Assembly: GCA_018398765.1 (NCBI GenBank)
Contig: JAHBMJ010000613.1
Location: 12,501 to 44,047, forward strand
Length of the DNA stretch: 31,547 nt
Direction of reading: 5' to 3'
Source of the DNA: Chromera velia
Lineage: Eukaryota > Sar > Chromeraceae
In this document: positions 7,601-31,547 of the stretch, in pieces
Layout of the letters: each line of letters opens with the position of its first letter
Numbering within the stretch: the first letter of the stretch is position 1
The notes under the pieces: model-generated
The model's input: only the letters and a program-made list of their open reading frames with translations
Databases searched by the model: none
What the model was told of the DNA's origin: nothing
Position numbers and translations under genes: made by a program

Positions 7601-7666
7601 TTTCATCGACAACCCTCTCTGCGTGTTTGCGCTGTGCCGTTCAATCTCTCTCTCTCTCTCTCTCTG

Positions 7667-7735
<69 letters not shown>

Positions 7736-8197
7736 GTGCACCATGCCTGTGTTTCGTTGTCTACACCATGTCCTTTTCTCAGTGTTTGCGTGCTTTCACT
7801 ATACGACTTTCTGTGTTTGCACTGTTTGCACTATGCCACTGTTTGTCCGTTCACAGTACATCACCAGCTCCGCTTGTTGACACCATGCCATGGCTTTTTG
7901 CGTGTCACAGCGTCAACTTTCCATTTCCCGGCCTCACCGCGAGTGCATGACCGATGTGCATCACTCCATCTGTTTTGCACATTCACGCATTCGTCGATTG
8001 CAGACGACTACAGCTGGCACACGTTCAATCCCGTGGCGCCGTTTGACGTCCTGAAGGTGACAGGGCCTCCTTCTCGGGGTTCTGTGTCCGTGTCCCCCTC
8101 TTCTGGGGAGGCCTTCGTGACTGAGTTCACACTCGAACAGTCGGGGTGGGCGTCAGACATCTCCACAGACACTCTGGAGTACTCATTCATCCTGCAG

Positions 8198-8232
<35 letters not shown>

Positions 8233-8282
8233 AGTGTGTCAGTCTGTCTGTCTGTCAGTCAGTCTGTCTGTCTCTCTGTCTC

Positions 8283-8315
<33 letters not shown>

Positions 8316-11300
8316 GTGCCTGTCTGTTGAAAAGAATGGAGTGCCTCTCTCAGCAGCCCTCCATTTCTGTTGATTGCATTTTTTCTGGAAGGAAGGATCA
8401 CTTGTGTGTTTGTCTCAATTTTTTCTGCCTGCAGGAGGTGACGCTGGATGCTGCCACGAGCACTTACAGCGACGTGACAAACGGAGACCAGGTGTTGCAG
8501 GGATTCACTTCAGGGACTGCAGCGCAGAGGCTGACGACAGTTCTGAAGGCAGGCTCCCAAGGGTCCTCTTTCCAGATTATTGCGAAGGCACGCGACACCA
8601 CAGGAAGCGAAGGGGTGACAAGATCGTCCGTCTTCACCGTCTCCAACGCAAATCCTCCCAGTTTAGACACCATCAAACAGACAATCGACCTCAAGGCCAC
8701 CTCAGTGCAGGGCTCCGGCTCCGCGCAGCTTCTCTCCTTTGTCACCTCTGCCACCTCGCTGGTAGACGTCAGTGCGGACTCGGATCAGACCACCTTCACG
8801 GATGCGGAGGCGGCGGAGATGCAGGCGTTCAGTGAGTCGGCACTCTCCGTCCTCGAGAGTGCCGTCACTCAGATGGAGCCTGCCGCCTCTGCCACGGTCC
8901 TTCTTCAAAGCGTGTCCGCGGTTGCCGACCTCTCGACGATCGCCTCTGCCTCTGCGGACCGTTCGATCAAGGCAGGAGGCACCGCGCTCACCCCCGAGGC
9001 CGCAGAGGCAGAGATGGCGGCACAGGCAGACATTCAGAAGAGGGTCGGTCTGTCATTCAGTCTATGTATGGACCGATAGACACGGCTTTAATTTCCCCTG
9101 AAGGATCGGATTCTCACTCCTTCTGAATTCCTTCCCGAGATTTCTCCGTCGTGCATCGCTGCCTGCCAGCCACACCGTCGAGTCTCCCGCATTGCAAACC
9201 CTTTGTGTGCGCGGTACGCGTTTTCGATCCGAATGACAATGTTGTGCGATCACGCTTCTTCCTTTCGTCTTGTGACCCTGCAGGCTGCCACTGTTCTCGA
9301 GTCAGCCATGACGGCAGCGGTGACCTCCGAGGATGAAATTCCCGTCTCGACGGTCCAAGCGATGCTCTCGGCAGCGTCGTCCATCTCAACATCGATCGTC
9401 TCTATTGGAAAGTCAGTCGGTCGGTCGGTTGAGTTGTCTGTCTGTCTGCGTGCGTGCTGCAGGCATCTGCTAGAAGAGTTTGCGTGTCTCAGTAAAAGGA
9501 TAAACAGAGAATCACTTTTTTTTCAGACTGTAGGGGATCTCTTCAGTCATGTGATGATCAAAACTCCTTTGCCTTCTCACGATTTCTGATGCGACTCGTC
9601 CCCTCAGTTACGGGAACCAGCAAGGAACGACCGACGCCCTCTCAGGAGATCCCTCCACGAACACCACGACTTCACCAGGGAAAATGAACGACGGTGCGGG
9701 GCGTATCATGAACATCGCGCGCCTGGCTGCAGTGGCGATGGCAAAGAGCCAGCCTCCGGGAGGAGAGATGCAGGAGACATCCTTCGGTGGCATCTCCATC
9801 TCCTCCTCTCCTCTTGGCCTCTCCACAATGCAGGGAGGGCAGGCGGGTGTGACGGCCTCCTCTGGCATGTCAGCCTCCTTCCCGGCACTTCCTATTCCTG
9901 CAGGTCGGTCTGTCTGTCTGTCTGTCTGTCTGTCGACGAGTTGCTTTCCCTCTCTGTCTCCCTGCTCTGCTATTGTGTCCCTCCATCTCACTCATGTTTT
10001 GGGAGCCTGTCCTGCTGTCCATTTTGTGCTTTTTTTCGTCGACGGCAACAACTTTGATCTCATTACATACGCATGCTTTTGGATTACTTGAATGCAGTGA
10101 CCACGCCCACTGTCGCGTGCCCGGCCTCGTCGGCTGTTGTTGCGACGTCGGTGGCCTTCTCGGAGAGTCCGCGGTCGGTGCTGCCCTCCTCAACCTCCTC
10201 GGGTGCTGCTTCGGAGTCCTCTGACCTCTCTCTGTACAGGTGCAACCAGCAGGTCCCCGTCTCTGGACTCACCACCCTCATCGACATCATGGTGCCCATG
10301 ACTCGAACCACTGGGTCTGTGGGGGGGACCTACATGGAGACGGGGTGCGCTTACTGGAACGATACGAGTGGTGCCTGGACAACTGAGGGATGCGAGACCG
10401 GCACTGGCAGCACAGCCACGATGCTCCACTGTCGGTGCAGTCATTTGACTGAGTTCGGAGGCACCACTCAGGAAAGCACAGCCCCCTCTTCAGAGCAAAC
10501 TCAGCAGGCTGAAGAGACGCCTTCTGCAGGGGAGGAGGTGAAAGACATCTTCAACGACATCAACGAGGAACCGCTAAGCAACTTCGACGCTGCTGCCAAT
10601 GCAGACCCCTCCAACCCCGTCATCTGGGTGATCTCCTTCTTCATCGGCTTCTATCTGGTCCTCCTTGTGCTGTCAGTCTGCATTGCAGTGCATTGCATGT
10701 GTGGTCCTTCCTGTGTTTTTTATCATACTGTTTTGCATGTGCATGCATGGTGTTTGTTTTTCTTCTGCCCCTGCATGGCCCTTTTCGTCGGCTCACGTGC
10801 TGCAGTTTCAGTCTGGACCGCTCATGTCCTAGCTCGTTCGTTCTTTCAACGCATGCTCAAACGTTGTGCGCCTGCAATGCACCGACAGAGGTCAACTGGG
10901 GCCCTGCATGAAGGGAAGGACTGTACCCCTCTTTCTCTCTTTCTTTCTTCCGTTGATCGATCGTGAGAGAGAGAGCGTCTGACCGGTCAGTCAATGATCT
11001 GATGGCATGCATAGATGCATGCGTGAATGGATAGACTGATGGATGGATGTACGGATCATGTGTACATGGATGTACGTGTGGATGCAGAGCTGCTCGGCAC
11101 GACTGGAAGAACCAGCACGACTTCCATTTTCTCTCCTTTTTGTACTTGAGGAACGAGAAGATCATCAGAAGAATCAGACAGGGCAGACCCCCAACCTTCT
11201 GGCAGGCGCTCTTCATGTGGTTGACGTCAGTCACTCGGCTGGAGGATCGAGAGGAGAAAAGAAGCGATTCAAAAAAGGAGTCCAACATACGAGCATGCAA

Positions 11301-14300
11301 AAAAAACGACTTGGCGGACTATACATACGGATGTTGACCTTCTCATTCCTTGACGCACAGGAATCGGACAGACTCGTTGGCTCAAACATTCTCCCGCTTT
11401 TCTCTTGTCCTGTTTGACTGTGTCAATCCCCCCCAACCACCCTCGCTGAATGACCGTCCGACCGACTGACTGGGAAACTTAATCAGTGACTGGATGAATA
11501 AGTGATTCGGAGTGAGTGAACCTTCAATAATTGAATGTGTGCAGGTGCAAGCCCTGCAGAGAGTCGTGCTCGATCTGTGCAAAGAGGTTCTGTGGTTGGA
11601 CGAAGAAGGGGAAGAAGTCAACGATGCACGAGACGGAGACGGTGCAGGACCTGAAGGTTATCCGGTCCATGGCAACCAAACTCCAGGAGGAAGAGGGCAT
11701 GGACAAGGGTACCGCCCTCAAGCACGTGATCGAAAAGGGCGAACTCAAGCAGTATGTCTCCACCCACGCGCGTCTGAGAAGAAAGCAGCTGCACGTGGCG
11801 GCTTCGCGCATTGCCCGCAAGTGGAGAGCGAAAGTGGCGGCACGGAAAGGCGGTCAGACGTCCTCGAACACCATCCAGCTGCACAGCATCGTGATGCCCT
11901 TCTCTACAGCGGGAATGGACGACTCGGACCTCGAGGAATGGGCCCCACTCCCCTGCCTGGCCGGGGTGTCGGCCCGTACTGTTTCTCCCGAGATGATGGC
12001 AGACGGCCGCACGCTCTCGTCTCTCCTCGTAGACACCCTTGGAGGGATGCAACCGCGAGAGGGCGACGCGTCGATTGACGCTTCTGAGGCCACATGTTAC
12101 CTGACAGACAGGGCAATTCTCCTGCAGACGGTTGACGGCCGGCCTTTGCCTCGACGGTCTGATGGGAGCACGGAGGAGAAGTGGAAGGGCCTCATGCTTC
12201 CTCTTGCGAACTTGATGAGTCCCCAGCGAGACGATGGAGAGGCCTTCGATGCCCGTGGAACGATGTGGACGACTCTTCTCCCTCCCAAGCTCGTCAGCTT
12301 TGAGGTCAACATCGCAGAGGCCACTTCTCAGGGGGGGCCTCTGAAGTGGATCGTCAACCAGACGGCTGAGAAAGAGCCGAAGGGATACGACTGGGCAGAC
12401 CCGGCCACATGGGAGTATCTGAGACAGGACCGGACGACAAAACCGGGATGGGCGCGTATCCACAGATTGGTTGTCGGGGCCGTGGGACGAGTGGCGCCTC
12501 CGGGGAAACGAGACAGTGTGGTCGGGACGAATCCCTCCTTCCTCGATGCAGGGGCGGGTTCTCTTGCTTCTTCGTCCTCTGAGTCCCCCTTGGTCGTTGT
12601 CCGCCTGGCCCTCCACTTCGGGGGAGAGAAGGTTTTCCCTTTCCACAATGCCGTCGTGGATTCTCTCAACGTCCTCAGAAGAAAAATGCCCAAACTGGCA
12701 CAAGCAGCAGCAGCCTCGTTGGCAACAGGAGCCATGCGGAAGACGGCAGAAGAGGAGGAGGTACTCAAACACACGGTCTCCCCAACTGCCGCTCAGAGGG
12801 CATGGGATCGATGGCAAGAGTATGCGATGGTGATGGAGCGACTCGCTCAAACTGATGACAGTTCATCCTTTGTCTCAGGCTCTGAGCTCGCAAGCACTCA
12901 CCAGGAGCAGCCTGTCTTCACCGAGACCCCCCTCAGAGACAGGCCTTTAGATGCACCCCCTCCGAAAATACCCCCCATCGCCCCCCCGAATGCCCGGTCT
13001 TCAGTCGAAAGTCTCGAGGAGGCCGCAGCGGCAGACGAAACAGAATCCCTCACGATCTCTGTCAACCCCCAACAACGCCGAGAAGCCCAAAATGCACTGA
13101 AGACTCTCGAGGACCTCATAGAAGAGGCTGCTGTCTATGCCGGCGAAGGGGATGACGAGGGCCCCAACCGGTTCGGAGGCTCCGCCCTTCCAGCCAGACC
13201 GACAGACGATCGCCTCTTTGACACCGAAAGTGCCGACGAAGCAAACGAGATGGAGGAACTCGGAATCGACGTCGGTGGGTCGCTGTCTCTGTTGGAGAAG
13301 GAGGGAGAGGACTTCTCTCCTGGCAGAAGCAACGAAGATATGGAGAACCCTGCACAGACAGATTCCTTCACCCCAGTCGGGGAAGAGATGAGCGAGATTG
13401 CGGAGACGCCATCGCTCCAAGGGTCTCCGGCAGGGGTGCAGAGGAGAGAGCTCTCGAGAGAGAAGAACAGAGAGAGAGAAGACGCGAACGAGGCAGAGGA
13501 CGACGAGGGAGACGATGAATCCTATGACGATGTGGAGGTTGCCAGCGTTCAGGATCCAGATTTACTCGATGAGCAGCTCCATAAAGGAATGGGCGACGCT
13601 GCGATGAAAAAAACTCTGGGGCTTGTTCAGGGCACCTTGGTGTTCCGAGGGATGACCTCTCTGAAGGGCTCTGTGCAGACGCAGGGCAGAAAGAGTCAGT
13701 CGGGGACTTCTTTCAGAAACTTCGTCGCTCCCTCCACGTCTCAATCGATGGAACCGAGAAAGTCCCTGTCGTTGTTCAAAAAGGGGAAGAGTACAGTGGG
13801 TACCCGATCAAAGAGATTCATCGACATCGGCACTGAGAGAGACAGGGACATCGTCTACGTGATCCGGCTGACCGACAGAGGGCTCTTGGTTAGTCAGTCG
13901 CTTCATTATTTCTTGATCTCCCTTTTCTCTCTGCCGCTTTTTCTCTGCTTCATCTCTCCTGCATTTTCTCGCTGCGAATGCTTCAATTGAGACGCATAGA
14001 ATGATGTTGAGCAAAATCCACATTCCCTACAATACTGTGTGTGCGTCTCTTTGTGTTTGATTTGCAGTTCGAGCCACTCTGCTACAAGGTCCGCATCGAC
14101 CAGGACGACGCAGAAGACGATGACGGCGGGTGGATGAAGTGGCCCCCCGAGAGGGAGACCTCCGTGTTCGTGGCTGCCAAGGACCGCGCGACTCTCCTTG
14201 CAGACGCCCACGAGACCCTCCCCGAGTTTGCACGCAAGCTCTTCGCCCAGGGAGTCGGGATGACTGAAAGCGACTTCCAGAAGAACGTCTTCGGGGCTCC

Positions 14301-16831
14301 TCAGCCAGCCCTTGTGATGCCCTTCAAGTTCATCGAACAGGTGTGTGTGGACAGATCAGGCGACAAGAAGAGAAGCTCCACCGTGGAACAGGGAGAAGGA
14401 GGGGACAAGTCTCTGGGCACAAGTGCGAGAAGCATCACGGGACTTGTGCAGGAGGGGGGAGGCGACGACTCGTCCCCCAGAAAGAGCGAGACGAATTTTC
14501 TGAGCTCCAACAGGCCGAACGCCACCAAGGCTTCAGAGACCAGTAGCACGATGCAGGCATCGACTGAGGGGGAGAGGTTCTTCCATATCGTCTGCGTGCT
14601 CTCTGACGGCATGCGTTTCCGTCTTGCCTGTGAGCTTGTTGACGGCATTGGCGTCTCGGAGGTTCTCGCGAAGGAGCCGCGTGGGCTCTCCGCTGCGGCA
14701 GCAGCCCCACGGGAGTCGGTGACACTGGCCGAGAGGAAGGCAGGGATGCCAGAAGGATGGTCGAGTCTCCGTCTGATGACAAAGGAAGACTTCGCAGACC
14801 TCGTCCAGAAGGAGGCGAAGAAGGCCATTGAGGACGAATCGGCAGACAACCTCGCCTTCAGCAAACAGGAAAACCTCAGGTTCACAACGTGGTCAACTTG
14901 GAAGTTCGCCTATCAGGTCGTCATCAGGTCTGTCAATCTTCCTGCCATCATCATCTTCATCTTTCTGCTGCCAGCCTTTTTTCAATGCCATGGTTTTTCC
15001 TGGCCCCTTCACTTTGTTCTCACTTTTCCATCGGCCTGTGCGCTATATTTCGCTGCTCCGCCTTCCAGTTCACTTAGTGACTTCGCTCTCAAAGTGTCAC
15101 CCTGGCCTCCCCCCTCTCTCTCTGCCTGCCTGTGTGTCTCCCTTTGTGTGTGTGAGGGAGAGCAGGGACCACCCGATCACGAAGACGAACGACAACAATC
15201 CGTCGAGGACCAGAATCCAGAGGTGGCTCCTCAGTGCAATCTCCTGGTTCACTGCTCTCACTGTCAGTCAGTCAGTCAGTCGGTTGCTCTGTCGGTCCGT
15301 TTTTTTTTTTTTGGCTGTCAGTCGGTCGGTCACAAGTGCTTGCAGGAATGAATCGGCTTCTCTTCTGCCTCCTTCTGGGCTTGAACTATGCTTCCACCCT
15401 CTATTTCTCCCTCTCCTTGCCTTCTCTCTATTTGCACAGTGTGATGCTCTGCATGTGCACTATGCTACTCTGTCTGCGCTTGGGTTGTTTCATTATCCAT
15501 TTCTGCTGTGTTTCCTTCCTTCCTTCCGTCTCTGTCTGTTTACGCGTGTGCGTTGGTGCGTCGTGCAGGTGACGGCACTCTTCTTCGGAGGGACGGACAC
15601 GAGCGGTGTGATCGGCACTCCGTTCATCTCGATCCAATTCACGGAGGATCCATTTGCGAAGATCGAGGTGTCCATCAGGACTTTGATTGGCATGTTCCTC
15701 TCTGTGCTCTTCAGTTTGCCGATCCCGATTTTCTGTGACCAGATGTTCAAGAAGAGAACGCCGTACATGGACAGACACGAGAGAATGGTGAAGGGAAGCA
15801 GGGTCTCCGAATTAGAGCTCCTTGTGCAACCAGAGTCACCATGGATGATGAATGCGGGCGAGAGGAGGACATGGGTGAAGAAAGTGAGGACAAAGGAAAT
15901 CATGGGGTCAGTTGACGTTTGTATGCGTCCCTCTCTCTCGCCCCAGCTCTCTGATTTCATTCCTTCTGCGTTGTATGCAACTCTGCTATGAGATCAAGGT
16001 GCTTTCCTGACAGTTTTGACACTTCCCCATGCAACTCTTTGAATGAGTCGATCATGTTCGGCGTCCTCTGATCTCTGTATGTATGCCTGTGTGTTTTCAT
16101 TTTTTTTTGACGCCCGCCCGATCTGCCTGCCTGCCTGCAGGTACTCAGTGGGAGGCGCCTGGTTGACTTTCTGCTTCTACTACCTGATGATGTTTGCTCT
16201 GAGTTCCAATTTCCGGATCGAGGACATGGTCGACTTCATCGTTGCCAACACGTCGACGTTCATCATCGACTATCTCCTCCTTCCTCTCTTGTGGGTGATG
16301 TTCCTCATGTTCCTCCTCTGGGCGATTCTCCGGTCTTCCGTGCTCGATCCATTCGTCTCCATGGTCCCATCCGCCTTCCGGTTCTCCGACGAACAGAAAG
16401 ATGATGACGGGGTCGGTCGGGTGTCTGCATGGGGGGTGCGTGCAGGGGTGATGCTCGTGAGATGCTCGGTTGACTCTCTGGCAGTGCCTCTCTGTTCAAG
16501 TCAAGAGGCAAAACATACCATATGACATTATGATGCTGCTCATCTATCACTTTCTTCTTCACCCCCCTCAGCTTCGGGTTGTGCTTGCAGTGTGCCGCCA
16601 CGCCGATCGATGAAGAAATGAATCAATGAATGAATGGAAGAAGGAAAGGACGAAAAGGGAAATTTCTCCAATTAAACCATCAAGTGAATGAATTCATTGA
16701 CACTGCATGGCTTACTCGTCCGCAGACTGACTGACTGCCTGGATATGCGTGCATGCATGCAGCTGGACCCCCCCGACGAAGAGGAGCGTCTGCTGGCACA
16801 GGGACTGTCGCCGCCGGACGAGATGGAATGA
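225..16831 (+). CDS. Polycystin-1-like EGF/sushi/REJ/GPS membrane protein, 22 exons, 5' partial
   Basis: Spliced model, exons: 225-344, 543-662, 1100-1219, 1534-1650, 2061-2540, 2898-3152, 3304-3540, 3761-4264, 4537-6929, 7174-7471, 8004-8197, 8435-9043, 9284-9411, 9608-9903, 10098-10698, 11088-11225, 11545-13888, 14068-14927, 15166-15262, 15569-15906, 16141-16411, 16763-16831 (TGA 16829-16831). The spliced length is 10,589 nt, entering at phase 1 and giving 3,528 complete codons; every junction keeps frame. The order (Cys-rich ectodomain, REJ, GPS, TM1, cytosolic loop, TM2-TM5) is that of the N-terminal part of polycystin-1 and its protist relatives. These are large surface receptors that cleave themselves at the GPS. 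No PLAT domain and no polycystin channel domain were recognised. A role in surface recognition or adhesion with calcium-linked signalling is inferred. The weakest joins are the exon 15 donor (GTGTGG) and the exon 10 donor. The start codon and signal peptide lie upstream of the window. Confidence 0.85.
741..1085. repeat. Intronic repeats: CTTCT run, 32-bp x4 array, CT run
   Basis: Inside the intron 663-1099 are a pentanucleotide CTTCT-type run (741-764) and four tandem copies of a 32-bp unit starting GATTGCACCTTCCTCCC (903-1030; the first copy has CGG where the others have CAG, and the last diverges at its final bases). A CT run at about 1067-1085 ends shortly before the acceptor and may serve as its polypyrimidine tract. 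Confidence 0.93.
1507..1523. repeat. GATC tetranucleotide run
   Basis: A short CGAT/GATC run sits 10 bases before the acceptor of EGF exon 4. It is self-complementary and could form a small hairpin near the 3' splice site. Confidence 0.85.
2061..4264 (+). CDS. CCP/sushi-like Cys-rich ectodomain exons 5-8 (same gene)
   Basis: Exons 2061-2540, 2898-3152, 3304-3540 and 3761-4264 are also all phase 1-1. They encode Cys-rich segments with the sushi-like pattern of an aromatic-x-C-x(3)-G-Y core (FKCQTGYEF in exon 5, [10 protein letters not shown] in exon 6), a Cys-Gly or Cys-Met-containing strand and a terminal P-x-C (PTCVP, YPVCN, PVCPG). Exons 7 and 8 are more divergent and their fold is uncertain. 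Extracellular location follows from position between the EGF modules and the GPS. The exon 5 donor (GTCAGC at 2541) was chosen because it alone gives the phase required by exon 6 while keeping the final Cys. Confidence 0.75.
4537..6929 (+). CDS. Large ectodomain exon 9: EGF, DUF4215-like Cys repeat and REJ-type region
   Basis: This 2,393-nt exon opens with a fifth EGF (G-T-D-E-C, then CDANAIC and SCAC). A DUF4215-type repeat follows at about 4702-4806: [27 protein letters not shown] and EKGWSC, matching the family pattern CGDG..E.CDDGN...GDGCS..C..E.GW.C. The remainder is long, Ser/Thr/Ala/Val-rich beta-type sequence. It includes FDTDI and the Cys-Arg-Trp strand seen ahead of REJ domains, then [15 protein letters not shown] near 5572-5620 followed by a Trp-containing strand (SVAWTLAC), typical of REJ (receptor for egg jelly) domains in sperm and protist polycystin-1 relatives. 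The exon is phase 1 at its 5' end and phase 0 at its 3' end, so the modular 1-1 exon series ends here. Confidence 0.82.
7174..9903 (+). CDS. Exons 10-14: membrane-proximal ectodomain leading to the GPS
   Basis: Exons 7174-7471, 8004-8197, 8435-9043, 9284-9411 and 9608-9903 join in frame (phases 0-1, 1-0, 0-0, 0-2, 2-1). The product is Ala/Ser/Thr-rich with few cysteines. It contains YSFILQ / EVTLDA beta strands that look like the end of the REJ array. An alpha-helical stretch follows in exons 12-14 (for example [40 protein letters not shown]), as expected of the helical subdomain of a GAIN fold before a GPS. The GAIN assignment is by position and texture, not by a diagnostic motif. Three of the four introns inside this block begin with GTCN donors, two of them as long GTCN arrays. 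Confidence 0.75.
7647..7733. repeat. CT / CTGT / GT compound microsatellite
   Basis: A pyrimidine-rich CT run passes into TCTG repeats, CT again and then a GT run, within the intron 7472-8003. It keeps several long reading frames open by chance; none is a gene. Confidence 0.95.
8198..8330 (+). repeat. GTCT tetranucleotide array starting at the 5' splice site of exon 11
   Basis: The exon ends ...CTGCAG at 8197 and the donor itself is the first unit of the array: eight GTCT units then GTCA without interruption (8198-8233). Interrupted TCTG/TCAG/TCTC repeats continue to about 8330. Each unit is a potential GTCTGT donor spaced four bases from the next. Confidence 0.93.
9904..9935 (+). repeat. 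Eight GTCN units starting at the 5' splice site of exon 14
   Basis: GTCG, six GTCT and GTCG follow directly from the exon end at 9903. A shorter run of the same kind starts at the exon 13 donor: GTCA then three GTCG at 9412-9427. Confidence 0.93.
10098..10698 (+). CDS. Exon 15: GPS autoproteolysis site and first membrane segment
   Basis: The exon carries a GPS motif with its Cys and Trp residues: [10 protein letters not shown], a Trp ten residues later, GCETG, then [12 protein letters not shown]. In GPS/GAIN proteins the chain is cut between Leu and Thr of His-Leu-Thr, here encoded at 10442-10450, leaving a non-covalently held ectodomain. About 45 residues of acidic linker follow, then a hydrophobic helix ([20 protein letters not shown], about 10627-10684), which is TM1. 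The 3' end at 10698 uses donor GTGTGG. It gives the only phase-2 junction compatible with the next exon, but is the least typical donor in the gene. Confidence 0.85.
11088..11225 (+). CDS. Exon 16: juxtamembrane cytosolic segment after TM1
   Basis: A 138-nt exon with acceptor ATGCAG and donor GTCAGT, phase 2 on both sides. It encodes a basic, aromatic-rich segment ([40 protein letters not shown]). Charged residues immediately after TM1 fit the cytosolic face. The WQALFMWL stretch is hydrophobic but too short for a sure extra membrane helix; it may lie along the membrane. Supported by phase closure on both sides and by splice-site form. Confidence 0.65.
11545..14927 (+). CDS. Exons 17-18: giant cytosolic loop of unknown fold between TM1 and TM2
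   Basis: Exon 17 (11545-13888, about 781 codons) and exon 18 (14068-14927, about 287 codons) make a loop of over 1,000 residues where polycystin-1 carries a PLAT domain. No PLAT signature was recognised. It starts with a Cys cluster ([16 protein letters not shown]). A helical basic segment containing [18 protein letters not shown] follows and resembles an IQ-type calmodulin site with Ala at the usual Gln. About 300 residues of probably folded sequence come next, then a long acidic, Glu/Asp/Ser-rich, likely disordered tail (about 12890-13560). A last basic segment leads into exon 18. Exon 18 contains [10 protein letters not shown] and a Ser/Thr-rich insert, and ends [14 protein letters not shown] just before TM2. 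The acceptor at 11545 could instead be at 11560, which has the same phase and drops five residues. Confidence 0.75.
15166..16411 (+). CDS. Exons 19-21: TM2-TM5, polycystin-1 family membrane core
   Basis: Exons 15166-15262, 15569-15906 and 16141-16411. A basic R-T-R-I-Q-R-W precedes TM2 ([12 protein letters not shown] / VTALFFGG, split by an intron). TM3 ([20 protein letters not shown]) follows, ending [11 protein letters not shown]. This pairing of [RK]-x-Q-R plus helix, then a helix ending in Pro and Phe-Lys/Arg, is the conserved TM2-TM3 region of polycystin-1. After a charged loop come TM4 ([19 protein letters not shown]) and TM5 ([23 protein letters not shown]). The order matches TM2-TM5 of polycystin-1; the six-helix channel module that should follow is missing. 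Confidence 0.82.
15263..15282 (+). repeat. Five GTCN units starting at the 5' splice site of exon 19
   Basis: Four GTCA units and one GTCG begin exactly at the donor after exon 19. GTCA+GT matches the commonest donor in this gene (GTCAGT), so each unit copies the splice site. Confidence 0.92.
16763..16831 (+). CDS. Terminal exon: short acidic C-terminal tail
   Basis: After acceptor ATGCAG the exon encodes an acidic tail of 22 residues ([14 protein letters not shown]... ending DEME) and stop TGA at 16829-16831. The phase-0 junction with 16411 is clean and the donor there is GTCGGT. The [10 protein letters not shown] stretch contains a D/E-x(3)-L-L-like acidic dileucine pattern, which in other eukaryotes can serve as an endocytic or lysosomal sorting signal. 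That role is inference. Confidence 0.7.
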   Translation: MDPPDEEERLLAQGLSPPDEME

Positions 16832-22541: not shown

Positions 22542-23186
22542 TCACCCTCTTCTCTTCCCCCTTCCTCCCAAAGCAGAACCAGAAACTCTGCACGCCGCCG
22601 CAGCAGCAGAGAACTTGAGCACTTCCTCCGCAAGCACGTCGCCGAATCCCCTGATTTTCTTTCGACTGAAGTTGAAAGTGTCGAAATTGATCTGAAAGTT
22701 CACCTGGCCATTCTCCCCTAGACGGAGCGGGCTGCAGGGCATCCACATCTCCAAGGACCTCTCCAACTGGTGGATGGCAGACCGGTGGGGGAGGGGGCGT
22801 TGTTGAAGAAGGGCCCCCCCCCCTTCCGCCTTCAAGTCAGGCATCTCGAAGAAATTGAAGATCCAACCAGAGGAACGCTGAAGACGTCCGTTCGCGTACC
22901 TGCAATCACTCACACATTCACACATTCGCATTAATTCGACTAATTCAAGTCACACCAATACATTCAGCCCCGAACGATCAACGAACGAATCAAAGCGACG
23001 AGAGGTTTACTAGAGACAGCTAGGGACAGAGGCACAGTTCCGTACGTATAGAGCGGCGGCAACCTTCATGCTAAGAGAAGAGAAGTGGAGAGGGAATCCA
23101 AGGGCTCCCTCCCCTCCCGCCTCTCGCTCGAAGCTCTTCAGAACAAGACCATACCAAGAAAGAGTTCTATGAAATGAATATCACAC

Positions 23187-23226
<40 letters not shown>

Positions 23227-25935
23227 TATGTTCTCAAATCAACTCAACTCGACTTGACTCACCCGAACGCCTTCACCCAAGTAGGCGTCTCTGCCATCTG
23301 GGCCCTCAAAGATCTGTCCATCTGTTTGGCGTTCTCCTCCACCGACAGAGAAGAGTCAAACGAAAGTTCCCACTGCAAGTTAATTGTTGACAGACAGGAA
23401 GCCAAGAAGAAAGCAGGCTTGTTCAATTCCTGATGAAAGAGAAGATCAGCGCAAATGCATACACGCAGGTGCTTCCACAGCGAGGTTAATGGGAAAACAC
23501 GTCCGGAAAACAAGAACAGTGCATTGTCTGAGGCCCGGCCTCCGAAGAGGGGACAACAGTGAGTGAGATCTGGGTGTCTCCTTCTTTGGACCCCCGAATG
23601 TATCGAGCCGAAAGAAAAACACACCGCTGCAAACAAACAAACGAACAAAGTGCACGCAGAAGAGTTGCTAGTGGACACAAAAACTGCCCCACTACAACCC
23701 CCCCCCCGACCTACCTGGACGATAGTTGCCAGAGATCCCCACGTGTGTGCAAACTGCGGAGGCAACCAGTCAGAGAGACGGGGGTCCACTACTTCGTCCA
23801 CAATCATTTTCTCGTGTCCTGTCAGCCTCCTCATCGCCTTCAGCCACAGGGTGAGCAGAAGGATGCGAGGAGAGATACCGCGAGGGAGTGCGGAGACTGG
23901 AAGAGAGACCGGACCGAAGGACTCGAAACTTCTGCACGCACAAACAAAATTCAATCAATCACATCGATCTGACCACACACAGCGAGGGACACACGAGAAT
24001 GACTTCACATTCCATGCGAATCAAAATTGAAAAAAACACCTTCTTGTCCAGACCACAAAGAAAGCCAAACAAGAGACAAAAAGGGGAGCGGAGTACCGAT
24101 TCAATAAAATCTGCCCACCGACTCCCTACGAGCCCACCCCTAGAGGGAACCAACTTTGCTTGCCCTCCCCCTATTTTCATGCTAGTACACGGTCGGTACT
24201 CTTTTGCTTGCCCGCCCCCACTTTGCATAAATGCAAGCACACGACCACCGACCGGCCTACCTGGATGAGAAAGTAGGTGAGAGAAACCGAAGGGGCACAT
24301 CCGGCTTCAGGCCAAAGTGTACCTTTCCCTTTGCAAGCTCCTTGTGCGATGGGAGTTTCCCCTTCCCCCTTCTCCCCTCAGCCACCTGGGGCCCGATCTC
24401 CGTCTCCCATTTCGAATAATCACCCACAAAGGCGGCCTCCAGGTCGGTCTCACAGGAAGTCGAAAGGGAGGCAGAGGCCCCCCCGCTCTTTCGGCAGAGA
24501 GAGGAGGCGGAAGGGCCTGCTGGAGGCTCTGCAGGGGGCAGCTGCAGCCCCTCTGCTGCTGCCGCAGTGCACCCAGCACCAACAGGATGGAAGCTGCCCC
24601 CCTCCTTCCTTGCGGCGTACCCATTCACAATGGCTCGGGCCAGAAACGCCACAGTGGAGACGTCTGCATGGACCCCATCACGTGCATTGGCACGCAGTTT
24701 TGCATATACCTACCTATATGTGCACGTAATTGTGTATATTTCATTTTATGCATGATGAACATGTTTGTCTGGTATGAGCGCAAAGAGGAATGAAGAAAAC
24801 GAAGATCCGTGCGGGGGGTCCCCTGCATGCCCCCGCACAACCAGACTGGAAATCAAGAAAATTAAGTCAACAAAGGAAGGAAGGAACCAGGAAAGAAGAG
24901 AAGAAGCAGGCTTTCCGAGGCCATTGTTCTGCGCGCAAGTCGCGAAAGCTTGAGTGGCTTTTGTCTCAGACCGGCCTACTGACCTGCAATGACGTGATGA
25001 ACGAAGAGAGTGAGCACGGACGTTTCCTCTACAAGAATGAACCCGCAGAGAAGTCCATTGAGTTTGCTCAATTGCCTTCTCATCTTCTTCCTTACTCCCT
25101 CCAGGTCCCTTTCTTTTTTGACGATCACCAACGGGATTTTCTTCTCAGTCTCCATCTCCTCCTCTACCTCTGCAACCAAAGGAATGTGCGCACAGCAAGT
25201 CAGCACACTGTTCCCCTTTCCCCTTCCGGGCTTTTTGATCTTCGACCGCAGCACTGGGTGTTCTCGAAAGATCTGTCGGAGGACGGAACGAAGGCAGAGG
25301 GGGTCCACTGTAGAAGAGAACGCGAGAAGAAATTCCAGAATGGAGGCGAAGTAAGACCTGCAGTAAGACATGCATTGCGGGCAACCACGTCTCTTCATAC
25401 GCGAAGGATATGCAACACAAATCCAAATTAGCGAACGGCAGAAAGCAGACCAGAGCAAGCACTGCGAAAAGGACTTCGATTGATCTGACACGTGCTGTCA
25501 GGTGCCTGATTGATTGATTGATTGATTGACTACAGGGGTGATCTGACACGTGCTGTCAGGTGCCTGATTGATTGATTGATTGACTACAGGGGTGATCTGA
25601 CACGTGCTGTCAGGTGCCTGATTGATTGATTGATTGACTACAGGGGAGAAGGACACAACGTTGGCGTTTGTGTCCCTTGCGTGAACTCGCTGTTCCGTTC
25701 CCTCACATCGGTAGAAGAAAACTCAGGAGTCACAGCTTCAAACATAAAGCTCACACATCCCACCCACCATGCGTCCCCCCCCCTGCCTGCCCTAGCTCCT
25801 GCTCCTTCCTTCCTTCAAATCCTTCCTACCCTACCTGTGCATGTGGGGGGTCATCATGTTCACCACAAAGGGAGGCATCACCTTCCGCCACCCCACTCCG
25901 ATTTCCATCTGGGCACACACAGGGAGACGATACTC
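22542..25935 (-). CDS. Terminal condensation (C) domain, spread over exons D-I
   Basis: Begins at REYRLPVCAQ in exon D (C1-like AQ), then FREHPVLRSKI (C2-like HxxLR) in exon E. The catalytic motif is HHVIAD-V-S: His-His-Val-Ile-Ala is at the end of exon E, and the Asp codon is split by the intron 24664-24983 (G at 24984, AC at 24663-24662). This matches HHxxxDxxS. Downstream are DYSKWE, ILLLTLWLKAMRRLTGHEKMIV, WGSLATIVQ and the C-terminal GQVNFQINFDTFNF stretch, all in C-domain order. The protein ends about 30 residues later with a basic tail (GGRGKRRG). As the last domain, with no TE or reductase, it is the likely release step (ester or amide formation with a free alcohol or amine), as in PCP-C endings of some fungal synthases. 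Substrate unknown. Confidence 0.87.
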
Positions 25936-26362
25936 CCTCAAGGCACTCACCCCCTCCCCCTCCTCATGGCTCCCCCTTGCTCCTGACATGGCCCCGCCTC
26001 CCCTGGCGACTTCCGTGCTCCCACTCCGGGCCTCCGGGTCCTCCCCCGTCTCCTCAGTCGCTCCCTCTCCCTCTCGATCCTCCCGTCTCCTCAAGTCGAT
26101 GTACTGAGCGAGTTTCTCGGGAGTGCGGAGACGGGAGACGTCCGAGGCACTAACCTTCAGGCCCCTCCTTCCGATCGCAGCAACTAGTTCTGACACTAGG
26201 AGAGAGTGCCCCCCCTCTTCGAAAAAGTCGCCCTCGGGGAGAAACTCTTCCACATCCAGAACCTGCAACCACATGTGATACAAGAGAGAAAGAAAAAGAG
26301 GTTGAGCGACCTAGGGCTTGCAGATTTGGAAGGGGAACCGCGAAGAACAGAAAAGAAACGAG

Positions 26363-26410
<48 letters not shown>

Positions 26411-29400
26411 CGAAAGAACGAGACGCCTCTCCAGCATCCACCGCAGAACAGAGAGGAGAAAAGGGCAGATGCGATTTTCAGCAAGGACTAAGGTGAAAGA
26501 AAGAACTAAAAAATTGGAATGGGAAATCACTCTATGGTTGTATCCACTCCACCAGAACAGAAGGCAGTATCATTCCACGAGAAGTAAACCGACCTCTGCG
26601 AAGGTGTGACAGAAGCACAAGGACAAGGTCTCGAATGTATCCATTTCCATTTCAGTACGGGTGCTGGCGAGAGCTGAGGAGAACGCGAGTTGCCGCTCCT
26701 CCAATGAGCCCTCCTCAACATCAACCTCCCCCCCCACGTTGTCTCTTCCAGACCCTCCCGGAATCCATGGAAAGGGACTGTGCTTCCACACGACCCCCCC
26801 TCTTGACGCTCTTTCAACTGCTGCCACACTCTTCTTGAACTCTTCTGCTGTGTCGGTGTTGGGTTTGGCCGACGGGACCCACACGGCCTCCCCTGCCTCC
26901 TCAGCCGACAGACAGAGTTTGCTCAGGGAAGTGAGGACAGGCCGGGGTCCGATCTCAATGAGGACCGACGCCTCGAGATCGAGCACAGCTGTACGCAGGG
27001 CGTCCATGAAACGCACGGGCTGAATAAGGTGTCTCCCCCAGTGAGAGGGATCTGAGAGGACAGAGAAGTCAGCAGGCTCTCCCGTCACAGAGGAGACCAG
27101 GGTAACTCCTTGTCTTGGAGGACTGAACTTCACACTTCTCACTGCATCCTTCAGTTTGGGCTCGGCAGGGCTCATCACGGGGGAATGAAAAGCGTTCGAC
27201 ACGGGAAGGAACGTTGCCTTCCCCCCTAACTGATCCAATACTTTCTGCACACACATGCGCGGTCCGGAGATCACGCAGCTCTTCCGACCGTTGATCGCTG
27301 CGACGGATGTCTGCTCCAGAACGGCATCCCCATCTTTCTCTCTGACCGAGCTAAACGCACTCTCGACATCCTCAAATGCCTGAGGGACAGCCACCATCAC
27401 TCCATCCCCCCCCTTCACCTGCTCCATCACCCACCCCCTTTCCGAAATCAGCTGTAGACCGTCCTCGATGCTCATCAGACCGCACACGGTCGCTGCCACA
27501 TACTCTCCCAGGCTGTGTCCGAGACAGACGTCGGGACTGACGCCCTTCGACTTCCAGAGCTCGCAGAGAGCCCACTCGAGAGCGAACAAACAGACCTGCA
27601 GAAGGGGAACAAACCGATGCAGACGGCTCCAAGAAAAGGTCTTGCATGTCTGAATGCCCACATTCACACACGCAGAAACAGAGAGGGCACAGACAAAATG
27701 CACGATGGAAGAGGACTCTGTCTTGGCACGAATGTTTCCGAGAAGGGTGGCTGAGGAGACTAAAAAAGATGGATGGCCCTAGGAGACAAAAAGGCAAGAC
27801 AATGCTGCCGGCACGCATCGCACATATTTGTCAGCGAACTTCTGTGTGTGAATGCACGCGTGTACAATAGTAAGGAGATGTCGAACGGGCGTTGGTTTTG
27901 GAATATTGCAGAAGGGAGGTTAGAAAGAAAAGAGAGTAGATGAAACAGCAGACAGACCTGAGACGTCTGTGTCTGGTTGATCTCCTTTTTCGCCTCCTCT
28001 GTCTCTTCCTCTGGAAACATTGTCTCGAGGAGCGAGCACCCTTGCCCGCTCCTCAGCAGCCCTCTTTCCTTCACGATACCTTCACAACGGTCAAGAGCCT
28101 CTCTAAACACACCCTCCTCCCGATACAGGTCCCTGCACATACCCAAATACTGCGACCCCTGCCCTGTGAACAGAAAGGCAGTCACTGGGCGGCGGCGCCC
28201 TTTCAGGAGGAGGGCCGCATCTGCGTCCCCTTCCTCCACAACCACGTGCGCATTTACACCCCCAAAGCCAAAAGAGGAGACGGCACCGATCAGCTTACCC
28301 CCCGCCGCCGCGGGTGGCTCCAGCGGCACGGTTTCTGTAGGGAACAGTACGGGGAATCCCTGGATGTCGATGTGGGGGTTCAGAGAACGGAAGTGCAGGT
28401 TCGCAGGGGCACGCCGCTGCTGCAGAACGAGCACAAGTTTCAGAAACCCCGCCAGACCCGCCGCCCCCTCCAGGTGACCGATGTTCGTCTTCAGGGCACC
28501 CACCACAAGGGGCGACCTCTTGTCCCTCCCCTCCCCATACACCTCACGCAAAGCCCCCACCTCTATCGGGTCCCCCAATTTCGTTCCCGTCCCGTGGGCC
28601 TCGATGTAGGCCACCTCTTTCGGATCCACCCCCGCCGTAAGGAGGGCTTGGGATATGACCTCCTGCTGGGCTGGGCCTCTTGGGGCCGTCAGGGATGCCG
28701 CTCGGCCTACATGGTTGACTGCAGAGCCCCGCACAATAGCCAACACAGGGCGCTCGGACGACCTGGCGCTGCGAAGCTTTTCCAGATGCACTGCAACCAC
28801 CCCCTCTCCCCTTGCATAACCGTTTGCAGAGGCATCGAATGTTTTGCACCTGCAGTCGGGAGAGAGCATTCTCGTTTTTGAGAATGAGATGAACGGCTGC
28901 GGAGACAGCATCAGGTTCACACCCCCAACCAGCGCGGCATCGCACTTCGATAACATCAGATTCGAAATCGCGATGTCCATCGCAACAAGGGACGCGCTGC
29001 AGGCGGTGTCGATGGTCATGCAGGGCCCTGTGAATCCGAAGAAATAAGAGAGCCTGCCCGAGATAATTGAGGGGCATTCTCCTGTGGCAGTCAGAGGGTT
29101 GATGCCCTCAATGCCGGAAATTACCGGCTCGGCCTTCCGGACTGTCCAGTCGTTATTGAAGGCCCCAATAAAAACGCCCATGTCCTTTCCCCGAAGGTCG
29201 GCTTTCTCATAACCTGCCGCATGCATAGCCTCGTATGAGACCTCGAGCATGTGGCGCTGTTGAGGGTCCATCTGTCGGGCCTCTGCGGCAGAGACGGCGA
29301 AGAAGGAGTTGTCGAACATCTCCACCCGGTCGATGAACGCGGCTTCCCTCGCGTACGTCTTCCCAGGGGCGTCGGCGTCGACAGAGAAGACAGACGCGTG

Positions 29401-31547
29401 GTCCCACCTCTCCGGAGGCACTGCGGAGAAGCAGTCGGTCTTTGCCTCCAGCGTCCTCCAAAACTCTCCGGCAGAATTGGAGGACCCCGGCAGACGGCAC
29501 GCGACCCCGCACACAGCGACATCGAAATGGGTTGGCCCCGACACACTCAGTGAGGAAATGCTCGAGACGAAAGAGGAAAAATGGGGCCGTTTTGTGATGG
29601 TCCGATGCAAAGAGCGTTGTCTGGTCATCCTTCGCGTCTGCTTTCTCTGTGCTCTCACACCCTGCACACTTCTCTCAATGAGCAAGTGGATACGGTCAAC
29701 GAGCGCAGAGAGAGTAGGGAAGTCGAAGAGGGCTGTGGAAGGGATGGAGACCCCAGAGAGCGTGGAGAGGTTCTGGCAGCATTCTGTTGTTGCCAGGGAG
29801 TCAAGGAGCTCGTGGAGAGGGGCGTCGCGTGGAATGTCTGACGGGCCCCCTCCCTTCCACACTGCCGCAACAGCATCACGCACCATGCTCTCAATCTGCA
29901 CAAACAAGCACAATTAATGGAGATGGAAGAGAGAGAGGCAGCCGGAAGCGCGCAAAGAAGAGAAAAGAATGCATGTTTGAAGCGAGTAACCATGCTCTCA
30001 ATCTGCACAAACAAGCACAATTAATGGAGATGGAAGAGAGAGAGGCAGCCGGAAGCGCGCAAAGAAGAGAAAAGAATGCATGTTTGAAGCGAGTAATCAA
30101 AAAACCAGTTCCACAAGCACAAGATGAAATACGCCTGAACCTGCCTCGATCATTCGGTTAATGCCGGGTGGCCCTTTTGCTGAACCCCCCGAAACAAAAA
30201 CCAGACAGAAAGAAAGACTCTTTTCCTCAGTGGCTAAAACAAAAACGATGCAAGCAGAAAAAGGGCCTCCCTCGCAAAGTACTCCCGAGAGAAGGAGACT
30301 AGGAACAGGCGAGAAGCGAGAGGGAAAGAACGGCACACAGAAGCCGATCTTTTCCCTTCCCTTGCTGCTTCAATTTAATCCGACGAGCCATCTGTCCATC
30401 CTACCGCAGAGAAAGACAAGAGAGAAGCCGATCGGCCTTCTTTCTTTCTGTGGCAGAAAAGCCAAAGACAACACCCCCTGCCAACCAGTTCTCTCCTTTC
30501 TGAGTAAGAAAACCTACCGCCGGTTTCTCCATCGCTTCCACGGTGTTGGTGCCGTCCTCCACCATGTCGCTGTTGCTTCTCAGCGGCGGCAACGGAAATG
30601 TCACGCTCTCGGGAAACAGACTTGGGGCAGGGGGGGCAACTAACGACCGGAACGCGTCACGGTCGCCTTCCTCAACGATCGCATGAGCATTTTGACCCCC
30701 AAAGCCAAAAGAGGAGACGGCACCGATCAGCTTACCCCCCGCCGCCGCGGGTGGCTCCAGCGGCACGGTTTCTGTAGGGAACAGTACGGGGAATCCCTGG
30801 ATGTCGATGTGGGGGTTCAGAGAACGGAAGTGCAGGTTCGCAGGGGCACGCCGCTGCTGCAGAACGAGCACAAGTTTCAGAAACCCCGCCAGACCCGCCG
30901 CCCCCTCCAGGTGACCGATGTTCGTCTTCAGGGCACCCACCACAAGGGGCGACCTCTTGTCCCTCCCCTCCCCATACACCTCACGCAAAGCCCCCACCTC
31001 TATCGGGTCCCCCAATTTCGTTCCCGTCCCGTGGGCTTCGATGTAGGCCACTGACCTCCCGAGAACCCCCCCGGCATCTATCAGAGCCTCTCGCATGAGG
31101 CGCACTTGGCTGTCGCGTCTGGGTGCTGTCAGGGAGGGGGCTGTGCCGTCGTGACACGCTGCCGTACCCCTCACAAGAGCGAGCACGGGACGGTTTCGCC
31201 GTCTCGCCGTCTCCAACGATTCCAACACAATCGCAATGACACCCTCACCCCGCGCATATCCATTGGCGGAGGCGTCGAAAGTCTTACATCGGCAGTCGGG
31301 GGCCAGCATTCTCGTTTTGCAAAGAGCGATAAACAGTTGAGGAGACAGCATCAAATTCACCCCTCCCACCAGTGCAGTCTCGCTCCTCCCCCCCCTAACC
31401 TCTCGAGCTGCCACGTCCAGGGCCACCAGAGACGAAGACGTTGCCGTGTCAATCGTCATCGAGGCTCCCCTCAAGTCCATCACTCGGCTGACACGGTTGG
31501 CAATCAGACAGCTGGACTGCCCCGTGAAGGCCAAACTCCCAATCTTC
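22542..31547 (-). CDS. Type I polyketide synthase with NRPS-type C-terminal domains, nine exons, 5' partial
   Basis: Exons in transcript order: 31547(edge)-30518, 29895-27958, 27595-26594, 26262-25835, 25357-24984, 24663-24261, 23931-23715, 23372-23263, 22899-22542 (stop TGA at 22544-22542). The total is 5,860 nt and 1,952 complete residues, and all eight junctions keep phase. Domain order is KS (Thr at the active site), ACP, KS, AT, PCP-like carrier, terminal condensation domain. The enzyme would build a polyketide chain on carrier-bound phosphopantetheine arms, and the last domain probably releases or transfers the product by amide or ester formation. No KR, DH, ER, A, TE or reductase domain is visible in this part. 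More modules are expected upstream, beyond the right edge. Donors are GTAGGT, GTCTGT, GTCGGT, GTAGGG, GTCAGT, GTAGGC, GTAGGT and GTGAGT; all eight acceptors end TGCAG. Confidence 0.9.
23190..23222. repeat. GA dinucleotide run in the last PKS intron
   Basis: A GA run on the + strand (CT on the transcript strand) within the intron 22900-23262, between exons H and I. Confidence 0.95.
25481..25646. repeat. Three tandem 54-58-bp units with hairpin and GATT run
   Basis: Units at 25481-25538, 25539-25592 and 25593-25646. The first has one extra ATTG. Each contains CTGACA-CGTGC-TGTCAG (6-bp perfect arms, 5-base loop) and a GATT microsatellite, ending GACTACAGGGG. It lies in the PKS intron between exons D and E. 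Confidence 0.95.
26085..26645 (-). CDS. PCP-like carrier domain after the AT (exons C-D)
   Basis: Helix 1 (TFETLSLCFCHTFAE) ends exon C, and exon D continues VLDVEEFLPEGDFFEEGGHSLL. The intron 26263-26593 (donor GTCGGT, phase 0) falls inside the domain. The FFEEGGHSLL core is the NRPS peptidyl-carrier form (FFDLGGHSL), not the PKS ACP form; the pantetheine Ser codon is 26205-26203. Helix 4 ends RTPEKLAQYIDLRR. An acidic Glu/Gly/Ser linker of about 50 residues follows before the condensation domain. A PCP-type carrier is what a downstream condensation domain would be expected to recognise. Confidence 0.9.
26365..26410. repeat. AC/AG dinucleotide microsatellite in a PKS intron
   Basis: A CA run followed by a GA run on the + strand, within the intron 26263-26593 that splits the PCP-like carrier. 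On the transcript strand it reads as a CT run then a GT run. Confidence 0.95.
26740..28205 (-). CDS. Acyltransferase domain, predicted malonyl-specific (exons B-C)
   Basis: Starts at FLFTGQGSQYLGM in exon B and is split by the intron 27596-27957 (phase 0, donor GTCTGT), then resumes at VCLFALEWALCELW. The nucleophile elbow is GHSLGEY (Ser codon 27514-27512). The specificity motif is NAFHSPVM; AFHS is the malonyl-CoA type (methylmalonyl enzymes have YASH). The C-terminal EIGPRPVLTSL is also typical. The usual LPTYPFQR-like post-AT linker is altered (WKHSPFPWIPGG). It loads extender units on the following carrier and could possibly serve the AT-less KS-ACP unit too. Confidence 0.93.
28235..29530 (-). 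CDS. Ketosynthase domain, complete and catalytically intact (exon B)
   Basis: Runs from FDVAVCGVACRLPG to SSFGFGGVNAHVVVEE. All landmarks are present: the RLPG start, MDPQQRHMLE, the nucleophile motif DTACSAS (Cys codon 29001-28999), EAHGTGT and KTNIGHLEGAAG. It catalyses decarboxylative Claisen condensation between the upstream acyl chain and the malonyl unit on its own carrier. Its C-terminal third shares an exactly identical 342-bp tract with the neighbouring Thr-type KS (28258-28599 versus 30695-31036), although the N-terminal parts of the two domains differ clearly. Confidence 0.95.
28258..28614. repeat. KS-to-KS identical tract, copy 1
   Basis: Bases 28258-28599 match 30695-31036 exactly as read by eye (342 bp, offset 2,437). 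One mismatch follows (C at 28600, T at 31037), then 14 more identical bases. Outside the tract the two KS coding regions differ at many positions. Confidence 0.95.
29650..29895 (-). CDS. Acyl carrier protein domain between the two KS domains (start of exon B)
   Basis: Begins IESMVRDAV and continues to LFDFPTLSALVDRIH. The phosphopantetheine site is ELLDSLATTE, with Ser at codon 29799-29797. The usual Gly before Asp (GxDSL) is Leu here (LLDSL), but Asp, Ser and Leu are kept and the downstream F-D-x-P-T helix is present, so it should be modifiable. It follows the Thr-substituted KS directly. A basic linker rich in Arg, Thr and Ser separates it from the next KS. Confidence 0.88.
29882..30096. 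repeat. 107-bp tandem duplication across an intron-exon boundary
   Basis: Units 29882-29988 and 29989-30095 are identical by eye. Each contains, on the - strand, the 3' splice site TTTGTGCAG and the first 14 bases of the ACP exon (ATTGAGAGCATGGT). The functional acceptor is the left copy (exon start 29895); the duplicate would be at 30002. Because 107 is not a multiple of three, using the duplicate would shift the frame. Confidence 0.95.
30518..31547 (-). CDS. Ketosynthase domain with active-site Cys replaced by Thr (exon A, partial)
   Basis: The C-terminal two thirds of a KS domain. The nucleophile motif normally DTACSSS reads DTATSSSL; the codon at 31441-31439 is ACG (Thr). Both catalytic histidines remain, in EAHGTGTKLGDP and KTNIGHLEGAAG, and the domain closes with SSFGFGGQNAH. 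Without Cys the domain should not accept an acyl chain for Claisen condensation. KSQ-type domains with Gln instead decarboxylate, and other non-elongating KS domains keep a structural role; Thr is not a standard variant of either. The exon ends EAMEKPA with donor GTAGGT at 30517, phase 0, after a Pro-rich linker, and the ACP follows directly with no AT between. The N-terminal part of the KS is off the window. Confidence 0.93.
30695..31051. repeat. KS-to-KS identical tract, copy 2
   Basis: Partner of 28258-28614, in the Thr-substituted KS. It covers the region from the EAHGTGT motif through the GHLEGAAG motif to FGFGG. Confidence 0.95.

Follow-up and report, generated by a model that had tools for sequence, protein, structure and literature searches.

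A ketosynthase with threonine at the nucleophile position in two loci of the Chromera velia genome, a candidate chain-initiating domain

The window analyzed here, a stretch of 31,547 nt from Chromera velia (positions 12501-44047 of contig C612), carries on its minus strand a type I polyketide synthase (PKS) gene with the domain order ketosynthase (KS), acyl carrier protein (ACP), KS, acyltransferase (AT), ACP, and condensation (C) domain. The first of these domains, hereafter KS-T, is our subject: at the position of the KS nucleophile, codon 31441-31439 is ACG, which places a Thr in the motif DTATSSSL. This substitution had been claimed in an original prediction made from the sequence of the window, and reading the minus strand bore it out. 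The genome searched for related domains comprises 177.8 Mb in 4040 contigs. The features of KS-T, with window coordinates, are as follows:

30665-31546, minus strand: Thr ketosynthase KS-T, C-terminal two thirds (phmmer; matches row 140-432 of the KS on contig C1782, see below)
31439-31441, minus strand: Thr nucleophile codon ACG in DTATSSSL (read in sequence)
31019-31033, minus strand: HGTGT motif of KS-T, with the first His and two Thr (read in sequence)
30911-30928, minus strand: KTNIGH motif of KS-T, with the Lys and the second His (read in sequence)
30695-31036, minus strand: 342-nt tract in KS-T, 100% identical to 28258-28599 (repeat comparison)

The frame 31546-30401 matches positions 144-252 of the PF00109 profile and positions 1-118 of 119 of PF02801. 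Since the PF00109 match begins at position 144 and the contig stops at window position 31547, KS-T is incomplete here, with its first ~140 residues beyond the contig end and its Thr codon ~100 nt from it. The missing N-terminal residues were recognized at no contig end of the genome. One end of contig C2194 holds the first 30 residues of a KS, near-identical to the first KS of C2194, and this fragment is probably not the missing part of KS-T.

A second KS with Thr at this position lies on contig C1782 (23582-24343), so that the check proposed in the original prediction, whether the Thr is conserved in related KS domains, gave a positive answer in this genome itself. This copy is complete, reads DTATSAS with the Thr encoded by ACC at a distance of over 2 kb from the contig end, and contains HGTGT as well as KTNIGH. 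PF00109 and PF02801 matches above the curated cut-offs identify the window KS-T (partial) and the C1782 KS-T (complete) as type I PKS or fatty acid synthase (FAS) ketosynthases, and in both of them the nucleophilic Cys of a condensing KS is replaced by Thr. Across the middle 164 codons, the two copies agree at 65% of residues and 62% of bases. The Cys domains use TGC or TGT, and any Thr codon is at least two base changes away from either, with TGC to ACG taking three. Given two diverged loci with different Thr codons (ACG and ACC), each at least two changes from Cys, a sequencing error is a very unlikely explanation of the Thr.

The KS-T of C1782 is followed by an ACP-like exon with a DSL motif (PF00550, 18.9 bits, just below the cut-off of 20.8), with no AT, and then by another KS that is cut by the contig end; the window and C1782 both retain a DSL downstream of KS-T. 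The frame of this KS-T opens at 23216, right after a stop, and its sole Met ahead of the KS is at 23219. Upstream, ~570 nt away, lies an ankyrin-like open reading frame (ORF) on the opposite strand (by eye), and no ACP-like frame was seen by eye in the ~570 nt between the two. This layout suggests that KS-T probably opens its protein in C1782, a distant 5' exon being possible.

The original prediction had further called both catalytic His motifs intact. They are present in the window copy, but they lie inside the 342-nt tract shared with the next KS of the gene (KS2), from which they could be borrowed, and are thus no independent evidence. Outside this tract, 60-column blocks of KS-T and KS2 are ~33-73% identical. 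The claim of an intact catalytic set rests instead on C1782, since both His are kept in both Thr copies and in C1782 lie outside the identical tract. There, ~280 nt in the N-terminal half of KS-T are near-identical, with few differences, to the next KS (25848-26234), making the two genes mirror cases: the identical stretch is N-terminal in C1782 and in the C-terminal half in the window. The nucleophile codon is outside the near-identical stretches in both genes. The 342-nt identity may reflect either gene conversion or assembly collapse of short reads; a Velvet short-read assembly with k=71, described in PMC4501334, is relevant if that assembly is this genome.

To place the two Thr domains among their relatives, we surveyed the KS domains of the genome. 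A family search gave 53 KS matches, and among the 32 readable rows the nucleophile is Cys in 30 and Thr in 2; several of the unread matches outside this tally are on contigs C2171, C1216, C1305, C3434, C675, C822, and C69. The trees rest on the middle KS region, where neither gene has its identical tract. In the tree of the genome's own KS domains the Thr domains are sisters (98/94) and are joined by the Cys-bearing KS2 of the window (98/95). When 24 bacterial rows were added and the nucleophile column was removed (with C3755 and rows below 280 residues left aside), the Thr pair received 98/91 and the trio with window KS2 99/95. A single origin of the Thr in the two copies is best supported by the trees but not proven, because the approximately unbiased (AU) test does not reject a tree that groups the window KS-T with KS2 of the same gene (p 0.157). 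In the simplest story, a KS of an ancestral gene would have been duplicated in tandem, the first copy would have changed from Cys to Thr, and the gene would then have been duplicated.

Selective constraint on the Thr domains was gauged from 67 conserved sites, defined as positions that no fewer than 96% of the other KS rows of the genome keep. The C1782 KS-T has changed at one of these, the nucleophile, and keeps the other 66; the window copy has changed at 2 of 53, the nucleophile and N269C. A leave-one-out version, restricted to sites at which the remaining Cys rows never vary, finds the Thr copies departing at 1/42 and 2/35. Among the 28 Cys rows, 18 show no departure and 9 show one to five. 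The remaining row, the KS at G000:C3755:6242-7534, keeps its Cys, has HGAGE for HGTGT, and has changed at 25 of the 67 sites; it is likely a decaying or repurposed domain, to judge from its sequence. The Thr pair has a dN of 0.33 and a dS of 2.0 (NG86, middle 164 codons), a ratio that serves only as a guide because dS is saturated, and the Cys-KS pairs measured alongside gave similar ratios (dN 0.17-0.38, dS 0.9-1.7; NG86 dS for all pairs but one, YN00 values for two of the eight pairs). C151, R159, D162, R192, and S248 are common to the Thr pair and absent from the other own-genome rows compared, with the R192 and S248 sites varying freely. With 66/67 sites kept in C1782 and dN far below dS, pseudogene decay of KS-T is ruled out and the plain dead domain, one of the options in the original prediction, is disfavored; another option on that list, a decarboxylating loader with a new residue, is the one we favor below. 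KS0 domains of trans-AT PKSs keep the Cys and have lost the HGTGT His, and this identity is ruled out for KS-T, which keeps that His.

The rest of the window gene, downstream of KS-T, is laid out as follows:

29896-30517, minus strand: intron between KS-T and ACP, 622 nt, with no room for an AT (in-frame join picked for splice sites)
29659-29895, minus strand: ACP of the KS-T unit, with the DSL Ser at 29797-29799 (PF00550, E 1.5e-5, 25.6 bits against a cut-off of 20.8, trimmed exon)
28228-29520, minus strand: KS2, with a normal Cys (TGC, 28999-29001; profile match and motif reading)
28258-28599, minus strand: partner tract of 342 nt, inside KS2 (repeat comparison)
26816-28176, minus strand: AT of the following module, in two exons, with GHSLGEY and NAFHSP motifs (PF00698 in two frames)
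26098-26280, minus strand: second ACP, GGHSLL (PF00550, E 2.8e-10)
22590-25930, minus strand: C-terminal condensation-like region of several hand-joined exons, with approximate limits (PF00668, E 3.7e-8, 32.9 bits against a cut-off of 30.6)

The exons of KS-T and its ACP are spliced in frame (30517..29896), the join being the one with the most usual-looking splice sites among nine possible in-frame joins. An AT would not fit into the 622-nt intron, and the KS-ACP unit without AT claimed in the original prediction stands. The weight which that prediction had put on the missing AT was misplaced, however: contigs C608 and C3391 hold KS-ACP units that by eye lack an AT and that keep the Cys (VDSACSSSL) and belong to a separate KS clade, and because such units exist we dropped the missing AT as an explanation of the Thr. 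By eye, the KS-ACP units of C608 and C3391 are preceded by an ACP and stand in front of a KS-AT module, and on C2194 an acyl-ligase-like region and an ACP lie ahead of the first KS. Turning back to the window, we take its AT to prefer malonyl from the motif rules for GHSLGEY and NAFHSP, and no reducing domains were matched among the scanned ORFs. The match of the condensation-like region covers positions 27-166 of the 456 in PF00668, that is, the first third of the profile only. At 24650-25050 this region reads HHVIADV across an intron (hand-joined exons) instead of the HHxxxDG usual for condensation domains.

Two repeats and a neighboring region of the window deserve mention. A perfect 107-nt tandem duplication (29882-29988 and 29989-30095) takes in the last part of the KS-T/ACP intron and the opening bases of the ACP exon, doubling the 3' splice site. 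In another PKS intron, a ~54-nt tandem repeat at 25481-25672 consists of TGAT runs plus TGATCTGACACGTGCTGTCAGGTGCC, which contains a short inverted repeat (by eye). On the plus strand, 4386-16525 holds long ORFs with Cys-rich and Ser/Thr-rich stretches followed by hydrophobic segments, which by eye have the look of a large surface or polycystin-type protein.

Taken together, the Thr KS is real and occurs at two loci, and its best reading is an initiating KS that carries a new residue where the nucleophile stands. More specifically, we propose at even odds (a probability of roughly 0.5) that KS-T and its ACP load the starter in a small algal type I PKS, forming a chain-initiating unit that is non-condensing and similar to the KSQ and KSS loaders. 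The Cys of a KS carries the chain, and with its loss KS-T would perform neither chain transfer nor condensation, while the His-His-Lys set and HGTGT would have been retained to hold and decarboxylate malonyl on the ACP. This ACP would receive its malonyl from the AT of the next module, which could serve both ACPs, or from a separate AT; decarboxylation would leave an acetyl starter that KS2 takes over, and the simplest product of KS2-AT-ACP-C would be a short beta-keto acyl group handed on by the C domain. The window copy would, like the C1782 copy, open its gene. A KS that has lost the Cys alone, retains everything else, and occupies the first place ahead of an ACP would agree with this scheme. 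According to PMC12267109, the KS mechanism relies on two His to hold the carboxyl and on two Thr (matched to HGTGT by numbering) to hold the thioester oxygen, and His and Thr residues bind and decarboxylate malonyl.

Several observations weigh against this proposal. The N-terminal position in C1782 derives from gene layout, and in the window the contig ends within the KS; the window copy has lost a conserved Asn (N269C); and the grouping of window KS-T with its own KS2 is kept by the AU test (p 0.157). In rat FAS, the Cys-to-Thr change is said to have been made by Witkowski et al. in 1999, and it reportedly abolished condensation and did not raise decarboxylation as Gln did. Finally, KS-T comes without an AT in its unit, whereas the loaders of PMC12843615 are KSQ-AT-ACP and KSS-AT-ACP.

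Alternatively, and doubtful in our view though it deserves to be kept in mind, KS-T could be a pseudo-enzyme kept for its shape, dimerizing the N-terminus and presenting the ACP while another enzyme loads the starter. Thr is expected to be a poor nucleophile, the unit has no AT, and incomplete AT-less modules are described for chromerid PKS-like enzymes in PMC7464705. However, the catalytic His pair, the Lys, and the two Thr of HGTGT are all present, and the complete copy retains 66/67 conserved sites with dN well below dS, whereas relaxed constraint is seen in the Cys-bearing KS of C3755, with its 25/67 departures and HGAGE. It is rather unlikely that the Thr acts as an oxygen nucleophile, carrying a starter acyl ester from CoA or a carrier to the ACP in place of an AT and without condensation. 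Thr does retain a hydroxyl in a unit that has no AT, and KS-like acyltransferases with Ser for Cys exist; yet the missing AT needs no such role, given the AT-less KS-ACP units with Cys in the same genome, and the beta-branched Thr would be hindered.

We consider it improbable that KS-T is a skipping or chain-passing KS within a longer assembly line, with the window copy following an upstream module. The 5' part of the window KS-T is missing and the KS-ACP units of C608 and C3391 follow an ACP (by eye), as this would have it, but passage through a KS needs a Cys thioester, the C608 and C3391 units keep their Cys, and the KS-T of C1782 seems to be first in its gene. An error at the contig edge, with TGC as the true codon, is barely credible: although the site is ~100 nt from the contig end and the 342-nt tract was possibly collapsed by k=71 short-read assembly (PMC4501334, if it treats this genome), the error would require three changes in a codon outside the identical tracts of both genes, and ACC stands at the same place in C1782, at 62% base identity and more than 2 kb from a contig end.

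That Thr is an unusual variant, as the original prediction had it, holds within the material covered here. A literature search over listings and text passages, largely outside subscription papers, turned up no natural KS bearing Thr at the nucleophile position. Yet the Thr is not unique, as three bacterial cases show. A scan of one genome per species across 84,980 bacterial and archaeal species (genome_contigs), with the pattern DTATS.S[L/F]VA and TCN serine codons only, returned six stretches, of which three are KS domains—from Kutzneria viridogrisea, a Nocardiopsis metagenome-assembled genome (MAG), and a Parachlamydiaceae MAG—and three are unrelated frames. All three KS domains are at the start of an open frame, the Thr KS beginning ~17-93 residues in; two keep both His, and the third keeps HGTGT and is cut by the end of its locus before the second His. 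The Kutzneria viridogrisea domain (L058 3015-4247) opens a KS-DH-ACP-C-A frame with no AT match in its KS-DH-ACP part. The three are spread over different bacterial branches, and a common origin with the algal pair was rejected when the two were joined (p-AU 1.7e-5). Among 21 other bacterial KS rows, a convenience sample with several near-identical pairs (five stretches from 15 listed of 1274 records, plus one neighboring), 20 have Cys and one has Gln, the latter in a KS that comes first in its type I PKS gene. Pattern matches in viral contigs numbered 11 stretches, none of them confirmed as a relative, and the Thr pattern went unmatched there.

It is tempting to speculate, tentatively and at somewhat less than even chances, that KS(Thr)-ACP is a separate AT-free initiation class, which would have arisen in an alveolate alga by duplication of the neighboring extender KS and a Cys-to-Thr change, would have been reached independently by bacteria, and in which the Thr either tunes the pocket for decarboxylation or carries the starter as an ester. 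The bacterial cases suggest that evolution has repeatedly removed the Cys of a first KS. Chain initiation in algal and alveolate PKSs is, in our judgment, poorly known, and the chromerid multi-modular enzymes are given as of unknown putative function in PMC7464705. A Thr KS conserved in a first unit that lacks an AT and is short enough to express and assay points to a definite and testable chain start, and would put Thr beside Gln and Ser as a natural replacement of the KS nucleophile.

How, then, does KS-T compare with known systems? Within the same genome, the AT-less units of C608 and C3391 share its KS-ACP composition and differ by their Cys, their KS clade, and the ACP in front of them (by eye). 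The bacterial Thr domains resemble KS-T in DTATSSSLVA and the kept HGTGT, and each is first in its frame, the place that the C1782 copy seems to have in its gene; they differ in belonging to separate branches. The frame of the Nocardiopsis MAG begins KS-AT. Natural loaders with Cys-to-Ser (KSS) and Cys-to-Gln (KSQ) changes are held to decarboxylate without condensing, and mutagenesis of nystatin NysA implicated S413 rather than the Ser at the Cys position (PMC4540446 and PMC12843615). The KSS loaders of polyene PKSs—nystatin, rimocidin, and natamycin, in the same two papers—resemble KS-T in having a hydroxyl residue for Cys, a likeness drawn by description only, and differ from it in their Ser, their AT, and their bacterial origin. 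Measured by what defines these loaders, KS-T has Thr where they have Gln or Ser, has both His, and has no AT in its module. The KSQ row of our data set (DTAQSSAL, L069) comes from a KS that begins a type I PKS gene with macrolide sugar genes as neighbors, and in the tree the algal pair groups with the KS domains of its own genome and not with this row. KSQ loaders (KSQ-AT-ACP) differ from KS-T in their Gln and their AT, and share with it a non-Cys residue at the nucleophile position, retained His and Lys, and an ACP behind; their chain-initiating place would match the one proposed for KS-T.

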